A stretch of DNA of 32,637 nt from contig CAIKXA010000030.1 in NCBI GenBank assembly GCA_903831295.1, positions 1 to 32,637 of the forward strand. Direction: 5' to 3'. Below, in pieces: positions 2,488 through 32,637 of this stretch; the first letter of the stretch is position 1, and each line of letters begins with the position of its first letter. The translations under genes and the position numbers were made by a program. The notes below the pieces were generated by a model. The model was not told the origin of the DNA, did no database searches, and saw only the letters and a list, made by a program, of their open reading frames with translations. Source of the DNA: an uncultured bacterium. Its GTDB lineage: Bacteria; Planctomycetota; Phycisphaerae; Phycisphaerales; SM1A02.

Positions 2488-2581
2488 GCAGAAAGGGTGG
2501 CACCACAAGCGAGTTTAGCACCCGCGCGAGCCCCGCTCGCGTGGGGTGCGTTGTCTGAGCGACTGGTGCCACCCTTTCTGC
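2488..2581 (+). repeat. Dispersed palindromic element, copy 1
   Basis: The outer arms GCAGAAAGGGTGGCACCA (2488-2505) and its exact complement (2564-2581) enclose a core of about 58 bp. The core is nearly identical to the cores of the copies near 25.2, 31.0 and 32.5 kb. Inside the core, GCACCC..GCGAGC pairs with GCTCGC..GGGTGC. The outer arms differ from those of the other copies but remain perfectly complementary. The inner stem carries G-C where the other copies have A-T. The element lies between ogt and the glyA upstream repeats. Confidence 0.85.
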
Positions 2582-5514: not shown

Positions 5515-6591
5515 TCAAAGCACTTCAATGCGCTGGGCAATGTCGCGGGTTTCAAGCGCCATGACTAATTCTTCCATGTCGCCCGCGAGCAACTTCTGCA
5601 AGTTGAACGATTGCTCCACGCGGTGGTCCACCGCGATGTTGTCCTTGTAGCGGTATGTGCGAATTTTCTCCGCGCGCTCGCCGCCGCCAATCATGTCGCG
5701 TCGCAACTCGCCGCGCTTGGCCGCCGCGTCCGCAAGACGACGCTCATGCACTCGCGCGCGAAGCAACCGCCAGGCCTTGTCGCGATTTTGCAATTGACTG
5801 CGCGTCTCCTGCATGCGCACTTCAATGCCGGTTGGTTCGTGGATCAAATGCACGGCCGTCGCGACCTTGTTCACGTTTTGTCCGCCTGGACCTTGCGCGG
5901 TGGTCAGGATTTCGCGCACTTCGGCGGGATCAACTTGCGACTCAACTGTTTCGGGTTCGCTCAGCACCGCCACTGTCGCGGTTGATGTGTGGATGCGTCC
6001 CGCGGCCTCCGTGGCCGGCACGCGCTTCACTTGATGCACGCCACTCTCGTAGCCAAGCGTGTTCCAACAACCTGTTCCTTCAATGCGAATAATGGCGTGC
6101 GTCACGCCGCCCGCATCGCCATGTTTGATTTCCATTTCGTCCCATTGCCAAGCGTGAAGTTGCGCGGCAAGGCGATACATTTGCAGCAAATCGCCAGCCC
6201 AAATCGCGGCTTCAAGACCGCCCACGCCGCAGCGAACCTCCAGAATGAGGCTGCCAATGGCGCGATCATCGGCCATCACCAGTGTGCGGATGAGCGCCTC
6301 CATGCTGGCGTCGCGCGCTGTTTGCAGCCCGTGAATTTCGCCGCGCGCCATGGCCGCGATGTCAACGTCCGTGTCCTTGGCAAGCAATTCGCACTCGCGC
6401 GCCTCGCGCTCCAAGCGCCGCCATTGGCGCAAATTTTCAATTAAGGGTTGCGCAGCGGCGCGCCGTTGTGAAAGCACTTTCACCTTGCGGTGATCGGAAA
6501 TTATTTCGGGATCGGAAAGTTGTCTTTCATCATTTTGAAAGTTGGCCTCGATCTCGTTTAGTTTTTCTAGAAGCCTGGGCGATGGTTGCAT
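5515..6591 (-). CDS. prfA: Peptide chain release factor 1
   Basis: A class I release factor that recognises UAA/UAG and triggers hydrolysis of peptidyl-tRNA. The 358 residues match the family length. The codon-recognition loop has VPATEAAGRIHTS, and the PAT tripeptide (192-194) is the RF1-type P-x-T, where RF2 has SPF. The catalytic GGQ is at 236-238 in GPGGQNVNK. The usual RF1 motif AGTGGDEAA is here CGVGGLEAA (121-129), with Leu for Asp. The GGQ flank QNVNKVATAV also differs from the common QHVNTTDSAV, so this is a divergent RF1. The ATG has no obvious Shine-Dalgarno. It lies downstream of rpmE, a common arrangement, but a terminator hairpin sits between them. No prmC/hemK gene follows, although it often does in other bacteria. 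Confidence 0.92.
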   Translation of the reverse strand: MQPSPRLLEKLNEIEANFQNDERQLSDPEIISDHRKVKVLSQRRAAAQPLIENLRQWRRLEREARECELLAKDTDVDIAAMARGEIHGLQTARDASMEALIRTLVMADDRAIGSLILEVRCGVGGLEAAIWAGDLLQMYRLAAQLHAWQWDEMEIKHGDAGGVTHAIIRIEGTGCWNTLGYESGVHQVKRVPATEAAGRIHTSTATVAVLSEPETVESQVDPAEVREILTTAQGPGGQNVNKVATAVHLIHEPTGIEVRMQETRSQLQNRDKAWRLLRARVHERRLADAAAKRGELRRDMIGGGERAEKIRTYRYKDNIAVDHRVEQSFNLQKLLAGDMEELVMALETRDIAQRIEVL

Positions 6592-25197: not shown

Positions 25198-25346
25198 CGA
25201 TGCTGCGTGATCATGGGTGCTACCAGTCGCTCAGACAACGCACCCCGCGCAAGCAGGGCTTGCGCGGGTGCTAAACTCGCTTGTGGTAGCACCCATGATC
25301 ACTCCGCGCGAATTAGTTCGGGCCTTGTGGGGCTCGGCATTTACTT
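25198..25346 (-). repeat. Dispersed palindromic element, copy 2 (inverted)
   Basis: The outer arms GTGATCATGGGTGCTACCA (25207-25225) and its exact complement (25284-25302) surround the shared core. Relative to copy 3 the orientation is reversed. The arms differ from copy 3 by a G/C swap that is matched on the opposite arm. Homology with copy 3 continues outside the arms on both sides: GCAGCATCG on one, and on the other a near-palindrome around CGAACTAATTCG and then AAGTAAATGCCGAGCCC. Total shared length is about 149 bp. It lies downstream of the two RCC1 paralogues and upstream of mmsA. Confidence 0.88.
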
Positions 25347-25411: not shown

Positions 25412-27361
25412 TTAACGCATTTGCTGGTCGCGCGGCTTGTTGGCGTGTTCGGTTACAGGCGCAGGCGCGCCCCAAGTCACGGGGCCAAATTTGCTCAACA
25501 GGCCTCCTAGATCCGAACTATCAATAGTGCGATCGTGATTAAAGTCGCCAAAGGGCGGATCTATTTCTAACCAGTACAGAAGCAAAATCCCCAAATCGTT
25601 GGAGTCCACAAAGCCGTCCAGGTCAAAGTCGCCTTTGTCGTATTGACATTGGTCAGGGTGCGTATCAAGGTCATCGTCTGGCGCGCCCATCGCAATGTCG
25701 AATGAATCAAGTTCACCGTTCAGGTTGCAATCAAGCAAGGGGTTCTGATTCAATTCGCAGGCGTCAAGCAACGCGTTGCGGTTGCGATCAAGCACAGGAT
25801 TTGCGCCAATGTCGCGCGTGTCAAGCAACCCGTTGTTGTTGCAGTCGCCGCTTTCGCCAATGCCCACATACTTGAGTTGCACCGTCATATAGCCAGTGCC
25901 GCATTCGCTGGCCGCAACCGCAGGCGCGGGCAGCAGCGTGATGGTGAGTTGCCCAACCGCAACAGCGTTTGCGAACGTTGCAAACGGAATTTGCACGGTG
26001 GCGGTGCTAATGCCTGCGCCGGTGGAGCAATTCACGCCGCCATTTTCAAACACACGCTGAATGGTGACGCCGTTTAGTTTCACGGTAAGAAATTCATTGC
26101 TTGCGTCAAAGTCGCCTTTGGCGGAAATAACAACAGGCACATCCGCAAAGTTGTCAGGCATAACCAAGTTGGTGAAGGTTGTGCTTACGGCAACATTGGC
26201 GGTTGGCACCCCAAGTGACGCAGATGTGATGTCGTATTCAATGGCGCCTTGGCAAGTGTCTGGCACTTGATCGTGGTTCAGGTCTGGCAGGGCAAAATCA
26301 CGAATTTCAATGGCATCGTCCGTACTATTGTTGTTGCAATCAGCAAATGGTGTTTGGATAGCAAAACAGACGTCTCGCCCGGCGGCAATCTTTGTGCAGT
26401 AGCCCAAGTTTGAAGGTTGCGCATCAGTATTCATACTGCCCCAACTCAGAACAGAGCCATTGTTTTTAAGAGCGATGGAAAATGAGATGCCGCATGCGAT
26501 AGCTGTAACGCCTGAGTTGGCAGCAGCAGGAATGTTGCATTGACCGTTAGGGTTGCTACCCCAGACAAGCACAGCGCCATCTTTAAGAGCAATGGTGTGG
26601 AAGTAACCACCCGCGATAGCACTCACGTTTGTAAGCGCGGCAGGTGGAATATTGCACTGCGAATAACTGTCATTACCCCAAGCTAAAACCGCGCCATTTT
26701 TAATCGCAATAGTGTGTTCATATCCGCAAGCAATTGCCGACACGCCTTGCAAAACAGTTCCCATGATCTGAACAAATTGTCCCTGCGGAGTGGTCGTAAT
26801 GGGTAATCCGTTTGAATTTGTGCCTAGACTTTGACCGTAGTTGTTCTCGCCCCAACCTACTACCGACCCACCTTTGAGAGCGATGGAATGAAATCCATCG
26901 GCCGCGATAGCGTTAACGCCGGAGTTGACAGTAGGAGGAATGCTGCCGTATAAGTCAGTCCCCCAAGCTAGAACGCCACCATCTTTAAGAGCGAGGTTAT
27001 GATAAAAACCACACGCGATTGCAGAAATACCTGATTGGGCAGCAATTGGAACTGCATATTGACCATAATTATTATTTGCGTCATTCCCCCAAGAAAGAAC
27101 GGCACCATTTTTAAGAGCGATGGTGCGTGCGTAATTGCCCGCTATAGCAGAAACGCCGCTTAGAGCAGCAGCAGGAATGTCGCATTGACCGAAGTAGTTG
27201 TTACCCCAAGCCGTGACAGCACCAGTGGTTTGCGCACACACACCCGCCACACATCCAAAAACTCCAGCGCACACCGCAGCAAATCGCAGCATGCCTGTAA
27301 TGTCAGTGAATGTTAAAAAACGTGTAGCAAAGAATGGTCGTGCGGTATTAGAAAAGTTCAT
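25412..27361 (-). CDS. Secreted RCC1 propeller protein with C-terminal EF-hand pair (paralogue A)
   Basis: 649 residues. The start at 27361 has GGAGG 7 nt upstream. It begins a long signal peptide whose hydrophobic core (FAAVCAGVFGCVAGVCA) ends near residue 43, with an extended n-region of about 24 residues. Seven RCC1-type repeats (about 48-345) make one complete propeller; the fourth holds a longer loop. An Asp-rich linker leads to a beta-rich domain (about 380-505, beginning DITSASLGVPTAN). More Asp/Asn-rich calcium-type repeats follow, then two dockerin-like EF-hands (DFDLDGFVDSNDLGILLL and DFNHDRTIDSSDLGGLL) and the tail APVTEHANKPRDQQMR. No sorting signal is recognised. Binding partner is unknown. 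It is the tandem paralogue of the next gene. Confidence 0.88.
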   Translation of the reverse strand: MNFSNTARPFFATRFLTFTDITGMLRFAAVCAGVFGCVAGVCAQTTGAVTAWGNNYFGQCDIPAAALSGVSAIAGNYARTIALKNGAVLSWGNDANNNYGQYAVPIAAQSGISAIACGFYHNLALKDGGVLAWGTDLYGSIPPTVNSGVNAIAADGFHSIALKGGSVVGWGENNYGQSLGTNSNGLPITTTPQGQFVQIMGTVLQGVSAIACGYEHTIAIKNGAVLAWGNDSYSQCNIPPAALTNVSAIAGGYFHTIALKDGAVLVWGSNPNGQCNIPAAANSGVTAIACGISFSIALKNNGSVLSWGSMNTDAQPSNLGYCTKIAAGRDVCFAIQTPFADCNNNSTDDAIEIRDFALPDLNHDQVPDTCQGAIEYDITSASLGVPTANVAVSTTFTNLVMPDNFADVPVVISAKGDFDASNEFLTVKLNGVTIQRVFENGGVNCSTGAGISTATVQIPFATFANAVAVGQLTITLLPAPAVAASECGTGYMTVQLKYVGIGESGDCNNNGLLDTRDIGANPVLDRNRNALLDACELNQNPLLDCNLNGELDSFDIAMGAPDDDLDTHPDQCQYDKGDFDLDGFVDSNDLGILLLYWLEIDPPFGDFNHDRTIDSSDLGGLLSKFGPVTWGAPAPVTEHANKPRDQQMR

Positions 27362-27420
27362 GTTCAGGCCTCCAAAATGTTGCGCCCCGAAATGGAAAGA
27401 CCGGAAGGCCCTGTGACGCG

Positions 27421-27449
27421 ATAGCAGTATGACGCCATACCCATGTCAA
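27421..27449 (-). promoter_or_regulatory. Sigma70-like promoter of RCC1 paralogue A
   Basis: On the minus strand TTGACA (27449-27444) is followed, after 17 bp, by TGCTAT (27426-27421). An AT-rich stretch lies upstream. The distance to the ATG is about 60 bp. The same layout and leader recur in front of paralogue B. Confidence 0.6.
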
Positions 27450-27605
27450 AGCAAACAAAATCTTGTAATTAAATACAAGTAAAAGTGGGGGGTATTTGCA
27501 TTCACTTCACCCAATACTTGCATGCTATATCTACGCAGATCACCACGCGCGAAACAAATCTGCATCGCCGTGAAACTATTTGCGCGTGCGCCAGCGTTTG
27601 CGTTG

Positions 27606-30600
27606 TTAGCGCATTTGCTTGTCGCGCGGTTTGTTGGCGTGTTCGGTCACAGGCGCGGACTCGCCCCAAGTCACGCGCCCAAAGTTGCCCAACATTGCTC
27701 CTAGATCCGAGCTGTTAATAATCTGATCATTGTTAAAGTCGCCAAATGGCGGATCAATTTCCATCCAATACAAAAGCAAAATCCCCAAGTCCTTGGAGTC
27801 CACAAAGCCGTCCAGGTCTAGATCGCCCTTTGCCATTTCGCAGGCGTCGGGTCGGCCGTCACTGTCGTCGTCAATTGCGCCGGCACCAACATCGCAGGTG
27901 TCAATTATTCCGTTGGCGTCGCAGTCAAGCGAAGCGTCTGCCTCCATGTCGCAACTGTCGGGAATGCCGTTGAGATTGCAGTCGGCAACGCCTTCAGCCA
28001 AATCGCAAGTATCAATGCGGCCGTTTCTGTTGCAATCAAGCGCGGCGTCGTCAACAATTTCGTATTGATCAATGAACATGTTGCCGTCGCAGTCAAGCGA
28101 TGGATTCAGCAGAATGTCATACACATCCAGCACGCCGTTGCTGTTGCGATCAAGCACTGGGTTGTCCAAGATGTCGCAGGTGTCGGGGCGATGGTTGTTG
28201 TTGAAGTCTTTGTTTTCGCGTATGGCAATGGTGTGGTAGCCACCGCCCGCGATAGCGGTGATACCCGAGTTGGCGGCATCAGGAATGGTGCATTGACCGT
28301 TGCCGTTGTTACCCCAAGCCAGAACGGCGCCACCTTTAAGAGCGATTGTGTGGTAACGACCGCCCGCGATAGCGGAAACTCCCGATTGTGCAGCAGCCGG
28401 AATGTTGCATTGACCGTAGCCGTTGTAACCCCAAGCAAGAACAGCCCCATCTTTAAGAGCAATGGTGTGGTAAGTACCGCCCACGATAGCGGTGATGCCA
28501 GTCAGAGTAACGCCATTGATTTGCACTGGAACATTTCCAATGGCGCTAAAATTAGTAATTGGATTTCCACTGCCATCTGTTCCCTTGCATTGTCCATCGC
28601 TGTTGTAACCCCAAGCTAGAACGGTGCCATATTTAAGAGCGATGGTGTGGTAGGCACCACCCGCAATAGCGGCAACGTCGCTTAGAGCAGAATCAGGAAT
28701 GTTGCATTGACCGAAGTAGTTGTAACCCCAAGCCATAACTGCACCATTTTTCATAGCGATACTGTGTTCGTCCCCGCACCCGATAGCCGTAACACCACTT
28801 TGAGCATTTGATGGGATATTGCATTGACCGTTGCCATTACTGCCCCATGCCAATACTGCACCATTTTTAAGAGCAGTTGTGTGTCCGTAACCACCCGCGA
28901 TAGCTGCGACGTCGCTGAAAGCAGTGGCAGGAATATTGCATTGCCCATCGCCATTGTTACCCCATGAGAAAACTGATCCATTTTTGATAGCAACTGTATG
29001 AATTATGCCACATGCGATTGCTGTAGGTCCTGAGTTCGCAGCAGCAGGAATGTTGCATTGACCAGAATCGTTGTTGCCCCACAAAACAACGCCACCCGCA
29101 TTCGCTGTATCACAAAAATCCAACGTGCCATTGCTATCGCAATCTAAACCAGGCGTGTCCAAAATTTCATAGGTGTCAATGAACTTGTTGCCGTCGCAGT
29201 CAAGCGCGCTGTTGACCGAAATGTCGTAGGTGTCCAACTCGCCGTTGTTGTTGCGATCAAGCAGGGGGTTGTCACGAATCTGGCACGCATCAAGCTGGCG
29301 ATTCAGGTCGCGATCAAGCGCGGCGTTTGAATAAATTTCCGCCAAATCCCACACCGTGTCGCTGTTGCAATCCGCGCCCGGGGTAAGTCCCTGAAATTGC
29401 AATTGCATGGTGGTGCTGCCGTCGGCGCATTCGCCCGCGGTGACATACGGCGACGCAAGCAGTGTTATTTTCAGTTCGCCCGCCGTAGCGTACTGCGCAA
29501 ATGTTGCCTTGGGAATTGTTAGCGTGACTGTGCTGACGCCGCCATTGGTGGCGTTTGTGCAGTTAATGCCTGTGCTGTTGGTGTTGTCAAAAATGCGTGC
29601 GTATGTAATGTCATTCAGTTTCACCGTAAAAAATTCGTTGGCGCTGTCAAGGTCGCCCTTCACGCGAATTGTGAGCGTGGCGTCGGTGTAGGTTGGGTAC
29701 AGGTTGGTGAAGGTGTTGCTGTACGCGGTGTTGGCGGTTGGCACGCCTAGGTTTGCGGTGGTGATATTGAATTGATCAATGCCTTGGCAGGCGTCTGGAA
29801 TCTTGTCCGCATTTTGATCAAGCGCGCCATAGTCGCGAACATCAATGTTGTCGGCGATGCCGTTGTTGTTGCAGTCAAATTCATACTCGACATAAACCAT
29901 GCCATTTGCCCCGTTGCCACCAGCCCATCGAGTTGAAGAAGATTGGTCATATCCGCCCGCACCGCCGCCAGCTCCATAACCGTAGCCACCAAGACCACTA
30001 AATGATTGAATTCCATCACTAGCTTTAGGACCAAGCCCGTTCATCAGTATTCCGCCGCCACCGCCACCACCCGAATGTGAAGAGCGACCACCAGCTCCTC
30101 CAAATCCTGGAGTTAATTGATTGTGAATAAAAGAGTTGAATGTGGAAACAAAGCTTGCGCCTTGCCCAGTACCCGGAGTATTTGAGCATCCGCTTCCGTA
30201 ATTTCCAGCAGATCCACCTGATCCACCAGAGGAACCAGGATTGCAACCTCCACCACCGCCACTACCACCATTCCACTGGCCTGTCACTATGCCGCCACCA
30301 TTTGCTATTAAGAAATTCCCAAATCGAGAATCAGTCCCAGATGTCAAACCAGTAATGTCATTGTTGCCAATGGAAGTTAGACCTCCATTTCCACCGCGTC
30401 CAACTGAAACTGAAATTTGAAGGCCAGGTGTTACATTAAAAGTGCCTTCGCTGACGAATCCTGATCCGCCACCGCCTTGGTGCCCGTTTGCTCCGCCGCC
30501 ACCTCCACCTATGGCGATTACATGAATTTGAGTAACGCCACTCGGTACTGTTAATAAATTACTTTCATTAGTGAAGATCACAAACGAGTCAACATTAGCC

Positions 30601-30761
30601 TGACTTGCCACCGCAACCATCGGCGCAGCCAACAACGCGGCAAGCGCGCACGCCTGCGCCGCGCTCATTGCGCGCGTGGAAAAACTTGGGCGCTTTGCAC
30701 AAACGGCGCGTGCGGCAAAAACAGAAATAGAGTGTGCAAATGAACGGGTCGCGTTGATCAT
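27606..30761 (-). CDS. Large secreted glycine-rich / RCC1 / EF-hand protein (paralogue B)
   Basis: 1051 residues. The start at 30761 has GGAGG 8 nt upstream and gives an unusually long signal peptide of about 53 residues (core ACALAALLAAPMVAVASQA). Order of parts: a glycine-rich domain (about 80-295, runs of G interrupted by short strands), a beta-rich domain also found in paralogue A (about 330-458), and Asp/Asn-rich repeats of the DCDxNxxxDxxDI type (462-553). Then come seven RCC1 repeats forming one propeller (about 557-853), more Asp-rich repeats (to about 985), two dockerin-like EF-hands and the tail APVTEHANKPRDKQMR. Calcium binding is likely. Adhesive or matrix roles are plausible but unproven. 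The repeat DNA is highly self-similar, so copy number may vary. Confidence 0.88.
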   Translation of the reverse strand: MINATRSFAHSISVFAARAVCAKRPSFSTRAMSAAQACALAALLAAPMVAVASQANVDSFVIFTNESNLLTVPSGVTQIHVIAIGGGGGGANGHQGGGGSGFVSEGTFNVTPGLQISVSVGRGGNGGLTSIGNNDITGLTSGTDSRFGNFLIANGGGIVTGQWNGGSGGGGGCNPGSSGGSGGSAGNYGSGCSNTPGTGQGASFVSTFNSFIHNQLTPGFGGAGGRSSHSGGGGGGGILMNGLGPKASDGIQSFSGLGGYGYGAGGGAGGYDQSSSTRWAGGNGANGMVYVEYEFDCNNNGIADNIDVRDYGALDQNADKIPDACQGIDQFNITTANLGVPTANTAYSNTFTNLYPTYTDATLTIRVKGDLDSANEFFTVKLNDITYARIFDNTNSTGINCTNATNGGVSTVTLTIPKATFAQYATAGELKITLLASPYVTAGECADGSTTMQLQFQGLTPGADCNSDTVWDLAEIYSNAALDRDLNRQLDACQIRDNPLLDRNNNGELDTYDISVNSALDCDGNKFIDTYEILDTPGLDCDSNGTLDFCDTANAGGVVLWGNNDSGQCNIPAAANSGPTAIACGIIHTVAIKNGSVFSWGNNGDGQCNIPATAFSDVAAIAGGYGHTTALKNGAVLAWGSNGNGQCNIPSNAQSGVTAIGCGDEHSIAMKNGAVMAWGYNYFGQCNIPDSALSDVAAIAGGAYHTIALKYGTVLAWGYNSDGQCKGTDGSGNPITNFSAIGNVPVQINGVTLTGITAIVGGTYHTIALKDGAVLAWGYNGYGQCNIPAAAQSGVSAIAGGRYHTIALKGGAVLAWGNNGNGQCTIPDAANSGITAIAGGGYHTIAIRENKDFNNNHRPDTCDILDNPVLDRNSNGVLDVYDILLNPSLDCDGNMFIDQYEIVDDAALDCNRNGRIDTCDLAEGVADCNLNGIPDSCDMEADASLDCDANGIIDTCDVGAGAIDDDSDGRPDACEMAKGDLDLDGFVDSKDLGILLLYWMEIDPPFGDFNNDQIINSSDLGAMLGNFGRVTWGESAPVTEHANKPRDKQMR

Positions 30762-30941: not shown

Positions 30942-31101
30942 AAGTAAATGCCGAGCCCCTAGGGCGCGAACTAGTTCGCGCGTAGTGATCATGGCTGCTA
31001 CCACAAGCGAGTTTAGCACCCGCGCAAGCCCTGCTTGCGTGGGGTGCGTTGTCTGAGCGACTGGTAGCAGCCATGATCACGCAGCATCGAGTGTTGTCTG
31101 G
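30942..31101 (+). repeat. Dispersed palindromic element, copy 3
   Basis: It contains an 18-bp perfect palindrome GCGCGAACTAGTTCGCGC (30964-30981), then the main hairpin. That hairpin has outer arms GTGATCATGGCTGCTACCA (30985-31003) and its exact complement (31062-31080), and an inner stem GCACCC..GCAAGC / GCTTGC..GGGTGC. The part 30974-31101 is identical to copy 4 over 128 bp. The whole is about 149 bp homologous to copy 2 in the opposite orientation. It separates RCC1 paralogue B from the YhcG-type nuclease gene. Confidence 0.9.
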
Positions 31102-31233
31102 GCGGGTGGGGCAAAATTAATGCGGCGCGGAAAGTTGAGTGCTCAATGGCATCGGGCATTCGCCATTGTCTCCTTATAAATCTGCAAGAAAAACTGCTGC
31201 AAATGTGAAAGTGCTCCCGCGCTGTTTCTAGAG

Positions 31234-31260
31234 TGGCTTGGCTCGCACGCGTACAAGCCA
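31234..31260 (+). promoter_or_regulatory. Inverted repeat upstream of the nuclease gene
   Basis: TGGCTTG (31234-31240) and CAAGCCA (31254-31260) are perfect inverted half-sites 13 bp apart, about 53 bp before the nuclease start codon. The spacing fits a dimeric repressor operator or a small hairpin. No regulator gene is adjacent, so self-regulation or a distant factor would be needed. Confidence 0.35.
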
Positions 31261-31313
31261 ATCATTGAACGCGTCAGCAAGCAATTCATAAACAATTCAG
31301 CAGGGAGGCAAGC

Positions 31314-32483
31314 ATGGCAAAGGTAGGGAAGAAGAAGCGCAAGCCAGCAGTGGCAACGGCCGCGCTGAAGCATGTAGGGGCGAAAGAGAATGTGAAAGCC
31401 AAGGCGAAAGAGAAGGCGAATGACTTTGGAAAGGGCAAAGCATTTGACAAGGTCCAAGGCATCGTCCCAGACAGCACTCCAGCCAGCGTCAGCTTTGATG
31501 TTGTGTTGGGACTGATTCAGGCGGCGCGGGCGCGCGCGGTGACAGCGGTCAACACAACGCTGATTGAGTTGTACTGGAGCATTGGTCAATACATAAGTCG
31601 CAAGGCCGCAAAGGATGGGTGGGGCACGGGTACGGTGGCGGAATTATCGCGCACGATTCAGCGCAAGTACCCAGGAATGACGGGGTATTCCGCGAGCAAC
31701 TTGTGGCGAATGACCCAGTTTTATGAGATGTATTGTGAGCAGCCAAAACTCGCACCACTGGTGCGAGTTTTGTCGTGGACGCATAACTTGATCATTTTGA
31801 GCCGCTGTAAGGGCAAAGAAGAACGCGAATTTTATTTGCGATTGACTGTGCGCGAGAAGTGGGTCAAGCGAGATTTGGAACGTCAAATTACTGGCGCACT
31901 GTTCGAGCGCACCGTACTCGCACCGCCGAAAATGTCCGCGGCGTTGGCTGGCGCGCATCCAGAAGCGGCGGCCATGTTCAAGGACAGTTACTTGGTGGAG
32001 TTTCTTGAATTGCCGCGCGACCATTCGGAACCGGACTTGCAGCGCGGGCTGCTTGAGAAACTGAAACGCTTTCTTATAGAGCTTGGCCGCGACTTTAGTT
32101 TTGTTGGCAGTCAATATCCGCTGCAAGTTGGCGGGCGTGACTTTGCGCTTGATTTGTTGTTCTTCAATCGCGCACTGAATTGCCTAGTGGCCATTGAATT
32201 AAAGATTGGCGAGTTTGAGCCCGAACATTTGGGCAAGATGGAATTTTATTTGGAGGCACTTGATCAATGCGTGAAGAAGCCGCATGAGAATCCGTCGATT
32301 GGCGTGTTGTTATGTGCTACCAAGGATCGCAAGGTGGTCGAGTTTTCCTTGCGGCGCGCAATGTCACCGGCGTTGGTGGCGCAGTATCAAACCAGTTTGC
32401 CAGACAAGCAATTGCTGCAAGACAAACTGAATGAGTTTTTTGAGTTGGAGGAGCAACAATCTGAAATGGATCGCGCGAAATAA
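31314..32483 (+). CDS. YhcG/DUF1016-type PDDEXK nuclease
   Basis: 389 residues, with a strong ribosome binding site (GGGAGG, 6 nt before the ATG). The first 50 residues are Lys/Ala-rich and basic, an extra DNA- or RNA-binding tail not usual for the family. The DUF1016 N-terminal helical domain spans about 60-200 (TLIELYWSIGQYIS, GYSASNLWRMTQFYE, LVRVLSWTHNLIILSRCK). The PD-(D/E)xK nuclease domain spans about 225-350: D280 in DFALDLLFF and E295-x-K297 in AIELKIGEFEPEHLGKMEFYLEALD. YhcG-type proteins are predicted nucleases seen in many accessory regions and near restriction systems; targets are mostly unknown. It is the only gene between two identical hairpin elements. It contains an internal 14-bp inverted repeat. 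Confidence 0.9.
   Translation: MAKVGKKKRKPAVATAALKHVGAKENVKAKAKEKANDFGKGKAFDKVQGIVPDSTPASVSFDVVLGLIQAARARAVTAVNTTLIELYWSIGQYISRKAAKDGWGTGTVAELSRTIQRKYPGMTGYSASNLWRMTQFYEMYCEQPKLAPLVRVLSWTHNLIILSRCKGKEEREFYLRLTVREKWVKRDLERQITGALFERTVLAPPKMSAALAGAHPEAAAMFKDSYLVEFLELPRDHSEPDLQRGLLEKLKRFLIELGRDFSFVGSQYPLQVGGRDFALDLLFFNRALNCLVAIELKIGEFEPEHLGKMEFYLEALDQCVKKPHENPSIGVLLCATKDRKVVEFSLRRAMSPALVAQYQTSLPDKQLLQDKLNEFFELEEQQSEMDRAK
31744..31772. repeat. Perfect palindrome inside the nuclease gene
   Basis: CAAAACTCGCACCA (31744-31757) and its exact complement (31759-31772) are separated by one base, giving a 29-bp near-perfect palindrome in the coding sequence for PKLAPLVRVL. The second arm ends in TTTTG, so on the plus strand it resembles a small intrinsic terminator. 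Confidence 0.8.
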
Positions 32484-32509
32484 GAGGTTGCCTCAAAAGG
32501 GGCGAGTAC

Positions 32510-32637
32510 GTTCGCGCGTAGTGATCATGGCTGCTACCACAAGCGAGTTTAGCACCCGCGCAAGCCCTGCTTGCGTGGGGTGCGTTGTCTGAGCGACTGG
32601 TAGCAGCCATGATCACGCAGCATCGAGTGTTGTCTGG
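32510..32637 (+). repeat. Dispersed palindromic element, copy 4
   Basis: Identical over 128 bp to copy 3. Outer arms are GTGATCATGGCTGCTACCA (32521-32539) and its complement (32598-32616). It begins 26 bp after the nuclease stop codon and reaches the window edge, so its right boundary is unknown. To the left, the 18-bp palindrome of copy 3 is replaced by a related but shorter GCGAGTACGTTCGC. Confidence 0.9.

Follow-up and report, generated by a model that had tools for sequence, protein, structure and literature searches.

The window analysed here, the whole stretch of 32,637 nucleotides, ends with a gene for a YhcG-type nuclease enclosed by two direct copies of a long hairpin repeat. Related hairpins are scattered over the same genome and those of relatives, and their direct copies bracket other genes as well. 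We consider it moderately probable that they form an ancient family of mobile elements, folded and without coding capacity, and that genes between direct copies are one-gene cassettes, with YhcG, HigBA and FGE-sulfatase genes as cargo. If the hairpins mobilise cargo, they would provide a route for defence and toxin-antitoxin exchange within this bacterial family that needs no plasmid, phage or recognised transposase, and their conserved loop would be a handle for finding the mobilising enzyme.

The hairpin repeat and its copies

Self-comparison of the window revealed an identical direct repeat of 128 bp (30974-31101 and 32510-32637). As the first-pass annotation had stated, no plausible gene other than YhcG lies between the two, and further members of the repeat family lie near 2.5 kb and, inverted, near 25.2 kb (Table 1). 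Its 58-nt core was also recovered, as a 58-nt spacer flanked by 19-bp arms. Homology between the upstream copy and the 25.2-kb copy reaches leftward to 30928. The downstream copy, whose first arm follows the YhcG stop codon by 37 nt, is truncated at the contig end. Another contig of the same assembly (C54) opens inside this repeat, its flank being different, and in the relative G011 YhcG is directly followed by the gene found on C54. The second copy is therefore real, and C54 is very probably the continuation of the window. A segment of 5.9 kb with two RCC1-repeat genes and inverted copies at its ends is extra in the window's own genome (G000) and absent from G011.

Table 1. Positions of the hairpin copies and associated features (window coordinates unless a locus is named)
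Feature	Position	Strand	Remarks
Hairpin element F2, upstream copy	30963..31101	+	arms 30985-31003 / 31062-31080
Hairpin element F2, downstream copy	32499..32637	+	arms 32521-32539 / 32598-32616; exact part 32510-32637
F2 copy, inverted	25198..25331	-	far side of two RCC1-repeat genes
Solo F1 copy	2492..2577	+	arms GCAGAAAGGGTGGCACCA; methylguanine-methyltransferase-like gene on one side, serine hydroxymethyltransferase gene on the other
Pair of RCC1-repeat paralogues flanked by inverted element copies	25412..30761	-	missing at the matching place in G011
YhcG / DUF1016 PD-(D/E)XK nuclease gene, type A, 389 aa	31314..32483	+	Pfam domains; lysine-rich N-terminal tail
In-frame palindrome within the YhcG gene	31744..31772	+	13-bp arms, 3-nt loop
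HigBA toxin-antitoxin pair enclosed by direct hairpin copies	L244 1741-2993		G104, rplQ-pheS interval

Each copy forms a long hairpin, in which a variable outer stem of 18-19 bp is followed by a nearly invariant asymmetric internal loop and an inner stem. Three stem families with a common core are present in the own genome, namely F1 (GCAGAAAGGGTGGCACCA), F2 (GTGATCATGGCTGCTACCA), to which the window's repeat pair belongs, and F3 (ATAAAAGAAGTTGCCACA). Across two genera, 26 distinct sense copies show pairing in 362 of 364 cells of the outer stem, and 11 of the 14 pairs have changed on both sides. This alignment (genera g1 and g26) was fitted to the model after antisense, cut and duplicate rows had been removed from 77. 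Its rows were chosen by the motif GCGAGTT, thereby excluding one G009 copy with GTGATTT, so the constancy of the left loop block is partly due to selection. The right loop block (TTGTC.GAGC..CTG) shows no variation in 18/18 copies of an alignment that includes this G009 copy.

The covariance model found 20 full copies in the own genome (E <= 1.8e-16; 2.48-Mb assembly, 84% complete), and a 21st is truncated at the end of contig C22; these numbers rule out chance. Among 81 genomes (own plus 80 relatives), the repeat occurs in 11, of which 10 belong to the 16 of the genus and one, G040, to another genus. A broader model detected it in 13 of 151 family genomes (seven of g1, four of g26 and two of g66, the last with one weak match apiece). 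Judged by these matches, the repeat family spans at least two genera.

The surroundings of the copies resemble the element itself. In 13 of 34 cases the left 80-nt flank is similar to the core's left half, and in 20 of 36 the right 80-nt flank is similar to its right half; four control comparisons gave 0 or 1 such resemblances. Since the flanks match the element halves in order, new copies apparently inserted into older ones close to the tip and in the same orientation. The stricter proposal, in which each copy occupies the tip of an older hairpin that is still intact, was rejected, because pairing between the two flanks beats that of swapped flanks in just 3/29 copies; older hairpins have thus mostly decayed, or the nesting reading is incomplete. 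Target-site duplications were not detected: in 29 copies, whose ends are not sharply known, the longest words common to the native flanks did not exceed those common to swapped flanks. One 23-base pattern of the element core, searched against viral contigs, was not matched exactly in any of them.

YhcG genes and their linkage to the hairpins

The nuclease belongs to the YhcG / DUF1016 family, with DUF1016_N (149.5 bits) and YhcG_C (191.8 bits) both above the curated Pfam cut-offs. These were the only two Pfam domains at E<=0.001, and the domain of Rpn, the recombination-promoting nuclease, was absent. An NCBIfam search gave no match, nor did the PDB hold a sequence relative at E<=1. An aspartate and the (E/D)LK residues are retained in eight aligned YhcG proteins of the genus, and we take them to be the expected PD-(D/E)XK site with a predicted catalytic role. 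The basic N-terminal tail recognised earlier is indeed lysine-rich, with 14 K/R in the first 45 residues, and has a pLDDT below 50 in the structure model (overall pLDDT 72.9, pTM 0.42). Foldseek with this model returned matches of low TM-score to the nucleases Cas4, AdnA and MGME1. The protein also matches the PADLOC candidate defence family PDC-S02 (HMM, best E 3.8e-132) and is possibly encoded by a phage-defence gene. A cargo role suits such a gene, and YhcG is, on the sequence comparisons made here, probably an exchangeable passenger. DUF1016 genes appear as cargo or passengers of integrative conjugative elements in a passage of PMC4316617, and one is drawn on a prophage gene map in PMC11341870.

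A search with PF06250 detected nine YhcG genes in 5 of the 16 genus genomes, all five of them among the ten with repeat copies, and a tenth gene, truncated by the contig end, adjoins a copy on C15 of G000. An intact copy adjoins seven of the ten genes (G000 C30, C22 and C15; G007 C89, C142 and C1; and the fragmentary gene on G013 C32). In three cases copies lie on both sides (G000 C30, G007 C89 and, with one copy cut, G000 C22). Element and gene share the same orientation in 7/7 cases, and the distance from the stop codon to the downstream hairpin is 37-59 nt in 4/4. The rough chance that at least three of the four own-genome YhcG genes would lie beside one of the 21 copies is 2.6e-5, assuming one gene per 1.1 kb. 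Taken together, the positions indicate that the linkage is real within the genus.

The three genes without an intact adjoining copy are those on G000 C7, G004 C50 and G011 C163. By eye, a decayed copy lies downstream of the first, and in G011 the element's right flank of ~30 bp occurs twice around YhcG; G004 C50 retains half an arm. We rejected the latter two loci as empty sites and regard them as more likely losses, because both have kept pieces of the element. In G004 the hairpin is missing as by deletion at a CCC repeat, with the half arm left (L090 4060-4330 compared with L085 3240-3560). The conserved synteny without repeats that was named as counter-evidence to a nuclease-driven element was thus found only in part, G011 keeping YhcG at its locus with no intact repeats but with apparent remnants of them.

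Outside the genus, the linkage did not recur. The idea that hairpins generally accompany YhcG was rejected for other taxa, where they are present at 10 of 69 loci and beside 30 of 270 control genes (p 0.41; the 69 are those with flanks long enough among the best 80 YhcG loci from bacteria and archaea). The expectation that YhcG genes lie near copies more often than chance stood within the genus; in other taxa there was no such excess of hairpins near the gene. Two weak PF06250 matches outside the genus among the 81 genomes (G050 and G052) were both in genomes without a repeat match. Separately, direct repeats with a score of 18 or more flank 6/69 other-taxa YhcG genes and 3/282 control genes. 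Two such genes lie between long repeats, one of 93 nt and 98% identity (L194 4572-4664 / 5963-6055) and one of 51 nt and 96% (L185 4774-4824 / 6092-6142).

The YhcG gene itself contains a palindrome (Table 1). Perfect in-frame palindromes with arms of 8-15 bp and a loop of 3 or 5 nt were found in 72 of 85 YhcG genes (78 of the best 80 other-taxa loci, two partial ones being left out, and 7 of the genus), compared with 74/1700 synonymous shuffles and 25/393 other genes. They mostly occupy one site, the centre preceding the next tryptophan codon by 18 nt in 48/65, and that of the window's gene encodes a predicted helix (residues 144-152) of the modelled N-terminal domain. The sequence varies and palindromy stays, as there are 38 different loop-proximal 8-mers among the 72. 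Type A YhcG genes of G000 and G011 differ mainly around the palindrome (about 31630-31920, compared with L089) and at the very 3' end, with 0-3 differences in other 30-nt blocks. Small palindromes beside type C YhcG closely resemble the in-gene one (L090 4253-4279; L085 1929-1955). Flanking palindrome copies as a YhcG target were rejected as too few, with 5/135 resembling that of their own gene and 17/1350 in comparisons with other genes. The palindrome is a trait of the nucleotide sequence in a family of nucleases that is widespread.

Cargo between hairpin copies and its possible movement

Type B YhcG together with both its hairpins is 93% identical across 1748 bp between G000 C22 and G007 C89. 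The neighbours differ, with KilA-N and EAL genes in the former and an FGE-sulfatase gene in the latter. Contig C15 of G000 represents the FGE locus of the G007 type; it carries a hairpin and the first part of YhcG, 98.7% identical over 157 aa to G007, the remainder lying beyond the contig end. With type B and a hairpin on both C22 and C15, the assembled sequence places type B at two loci in G000, an arrangement that a strain mixture in the assembly could mimic. The EAL locus holds type D in G007 and G013 and type B in G000 C22. An interval between aldehyde-dehydrogenase and dihydroorotate-dehydrogenase-like genes contains type A YhcG in G000 and G011, and only remnants of the element, recognised by eye, in G009 and G015. 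The extra 5.9-kb RCC1 segment of G000 is placed in this interval too. The first-pass annotation had proposed a nuclease-linked mobile unit. Linkage above chance and type B with its hairpins at differing loci speak for such a unit, but not for the nuclease as its spreader.

The hairpin bracket also forms around other cargo without a detected YhcG, as seen in G104 of a sister genus, where two direct copies enclose genes for a HigB-like toxin and for an HTH protein, presumed to be the HigA antitoxin, between rplQ and pheS. The repeated unit is ~300 bp on each side and longer than the hairpin (by eye, the exact insertion junctions being coarse). For this place 13 genomes were searched and ten relatives fetched, one of them too short; 9/9 informative relatives were without the HigBA gene or element, and the flanks in G040 are 89-94% identical. 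Of the signs of movement suggested at the outset, target duplications and empty sites, the 29 copies gave none of the former; for the latter, these nine relatives show the absence of one cassette at a single site.

FGE-sulfatase genes are bracketed by hairpins on G000 C61 and G007 C159. The element upstream of such genes is oppositely oriented (twice on C61, and on C15, C89 and C159), unlike in the YhcG and HigBA cases. Among the 60 neighbour proteins of 38 copies, YhcG (6 proteins) and FGE-sulfatase/SUMF1-like proteins (7) recur at different sites; another cluster is the window's RCC1 pair, and eight clusters with one protein per genome were assumed to represent orthologous sites. Paralogue-like FGE-sulfatase neighbours with the element between them were observed in G000 (L035 4224-8194), as were, in G014, two adjacent genes alike in their first 30 residues and separated by the element (L093 1278-3558).

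We propose that a putative trans-acting strand-transfer enzyme would act on the folded hairpin strand, reading it via the nearly invariant internal loop, and that a gene between two direct copies would be carried along as a cassette. Ordinary recombination between copies may add cargo swaps, duplications and deletions. The fold, the bracketing, type B at differing loci, the presence or absence of HigBA and the shared orientation of element and YhcG are all consistent with this scheme. Against it stand the failure to find a moving enzyme (Y1 was absent from the 11 copy-bearing genomes), the lack of a detected target-site duplication, the reversed elements upstream of FGE-sulfatase genes, and the over-representation of YhcG and FGE-sulfatase, which a neutral carrier alone does not explain. 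The scheme is read from draft assemblies, in which the type B pair of G000 may reflect a strain mixture and the HigBA junctions are coarse.

It is rather unlikely that the hairpins have no dedicated mobiliser and are instead dispersed stretches of RecA-type homology and permissive landing sites for accessory genes. Adjacent paralogues with elements between or around them (the FGE genes of C61, the RCC1 genes of the window and the G014 pair), the different YhcG types at the EAL locus and the CCC-repeat deletion in G004 would all follow from such recombination. However, it leaves unexplained the spread of copies to 20 sites, the nested copies, and the HigBA cassette at a place where nine relatives have neither gene nor element.

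The first-pass annotation had held that the nuclease recognises, cuts or spreads the hairpin, with solo copies as non-autonomous derivatives of its element. By analogy with homing endonucleases, YhcG would cut the tips of older elements and new copies would be made there by repair. This is improbable as the source of the copies, and we retain it because the bias towards YhcG is real. The intact copies beside seven of ten genus YhcG genes, the confinement of YhcG to copy-bearing genomes, the missing Y1 transposase and the ordered match of flanks to element halves, as tip insertion would give, are in its favour. On the other hand, the first kind of counter-evidence named at the outset was found, as copies are abundant in genomes that, as far as draft assemblies with a possibly missed YhcG allow, are negative for PF06250: G014 (13 copies; an assembly of 8 contigs), G040 (13) and G104 (6), each 97% complete. 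The same holds for G002, G005, G009 and G015 (73-95% complete), and 6/6 copy-bearing genomes of genera g26 and g66 gave no YhcG match. HigBA is bracketed likewise with no YhcG, flank pairing is mostly not in excess of that of swapped flanks, and YhcG genes of other taxa show no excess of nearby hairpins. The idea that YhcG handles or spreads the hairpin was thus unsupported, and that of solo copies as its derivatives, given copies and bracketing without YhcG and no other-taxa enrichment, gained no positive support.

A regulatory role of the repeats as terminators or structured RNA, with incidental spread, is very improbable: the predicted RNA fold is very stable (-56.5 to -68.7 kcal/mol in 13 copies), but among the 26 copies for which the genes on both sides were called, these genes are divergent in 11 cases and convergent in 3 (orthologous sites counted apart), unlike what a terminator needs, the nesting and cargo bracketing do not suit it, and the window has no Rfam match at gathering score except a tRNA.

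Comparison with known systems

Among open-licence PMC papers (preprints being outside this scope), we found no report of the repeat, of a link between YhcG and hairpin repeats, of DUF1016 self-mobility or of the in-gene palindrome. The nuclease shares both Pfam domains and the PD-(D/E)XK residues with other YhcG / DUF1016 nucleases (PDC-S02); it differs in its lysine-rich tail, and placement between hairpins is seen only in this genus.

Like REP, BIME and REPIN sequences with their RAYT (TnpAREP) transposases, the elements are short, multicopy, imperfect intergenic hairpins with conserved unpaired features and sometimes a linked gene. They are longer, about 100-140 nt, and their direct copies bracket whole cargo genes. 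An actual REP/RAYT system was rejected, since the Y1 (HUH) transposase, searched for as the Y1_Tnp domain, was detected in 0/11 copy-bearing genomes; two Y1 hits, in G003 and G006, were both in genomes without a repeat match. PMC8266576 and PMC1525189 describe REP sites as landing places for insertion sequences as well.

With MITEs and composite non-autonomous elements the repeat shares its non-coding, inverted-repeat and multicopy nature and the ability to bracket cargo. Assignment as a MITE was rejected because no target-site duplication was found in the 29 copies, given their imprecise element ends. The stem varies and the internal loop is conserved here, whereas a typical terminal-repeat element has the reverse pattern of conservation.

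Integron cassettes carry a folded site 3' of one gene in the same orientation, which places direct repeats around the gene. The attC core-box consensus is RYYYAAC...GTTRRRY, and attC sites were rejected because neither the RYYYAAC nor the GTTRRRY box was present on either strand of six element sequences. The elements here also differ in that solo cassettes are scattered and not in arrays. It is unlikely, though conceivable by analogy, that they represent integron-analogous cassettes on an unrelated folded site, with a free outer stem and a loop read by a putative single-strand recombinase. Its dispersed one-gene cassettes, an equally tentative part of this analogy, would comprise a defence-type nuclease, a toxin-antitoxin pair and surface-type proteins in at least two genera. 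The likeness lies in the single gene or toxin-antitoxin pair, the folded site at its 3' side and the presence or absence of the cassette at one site.
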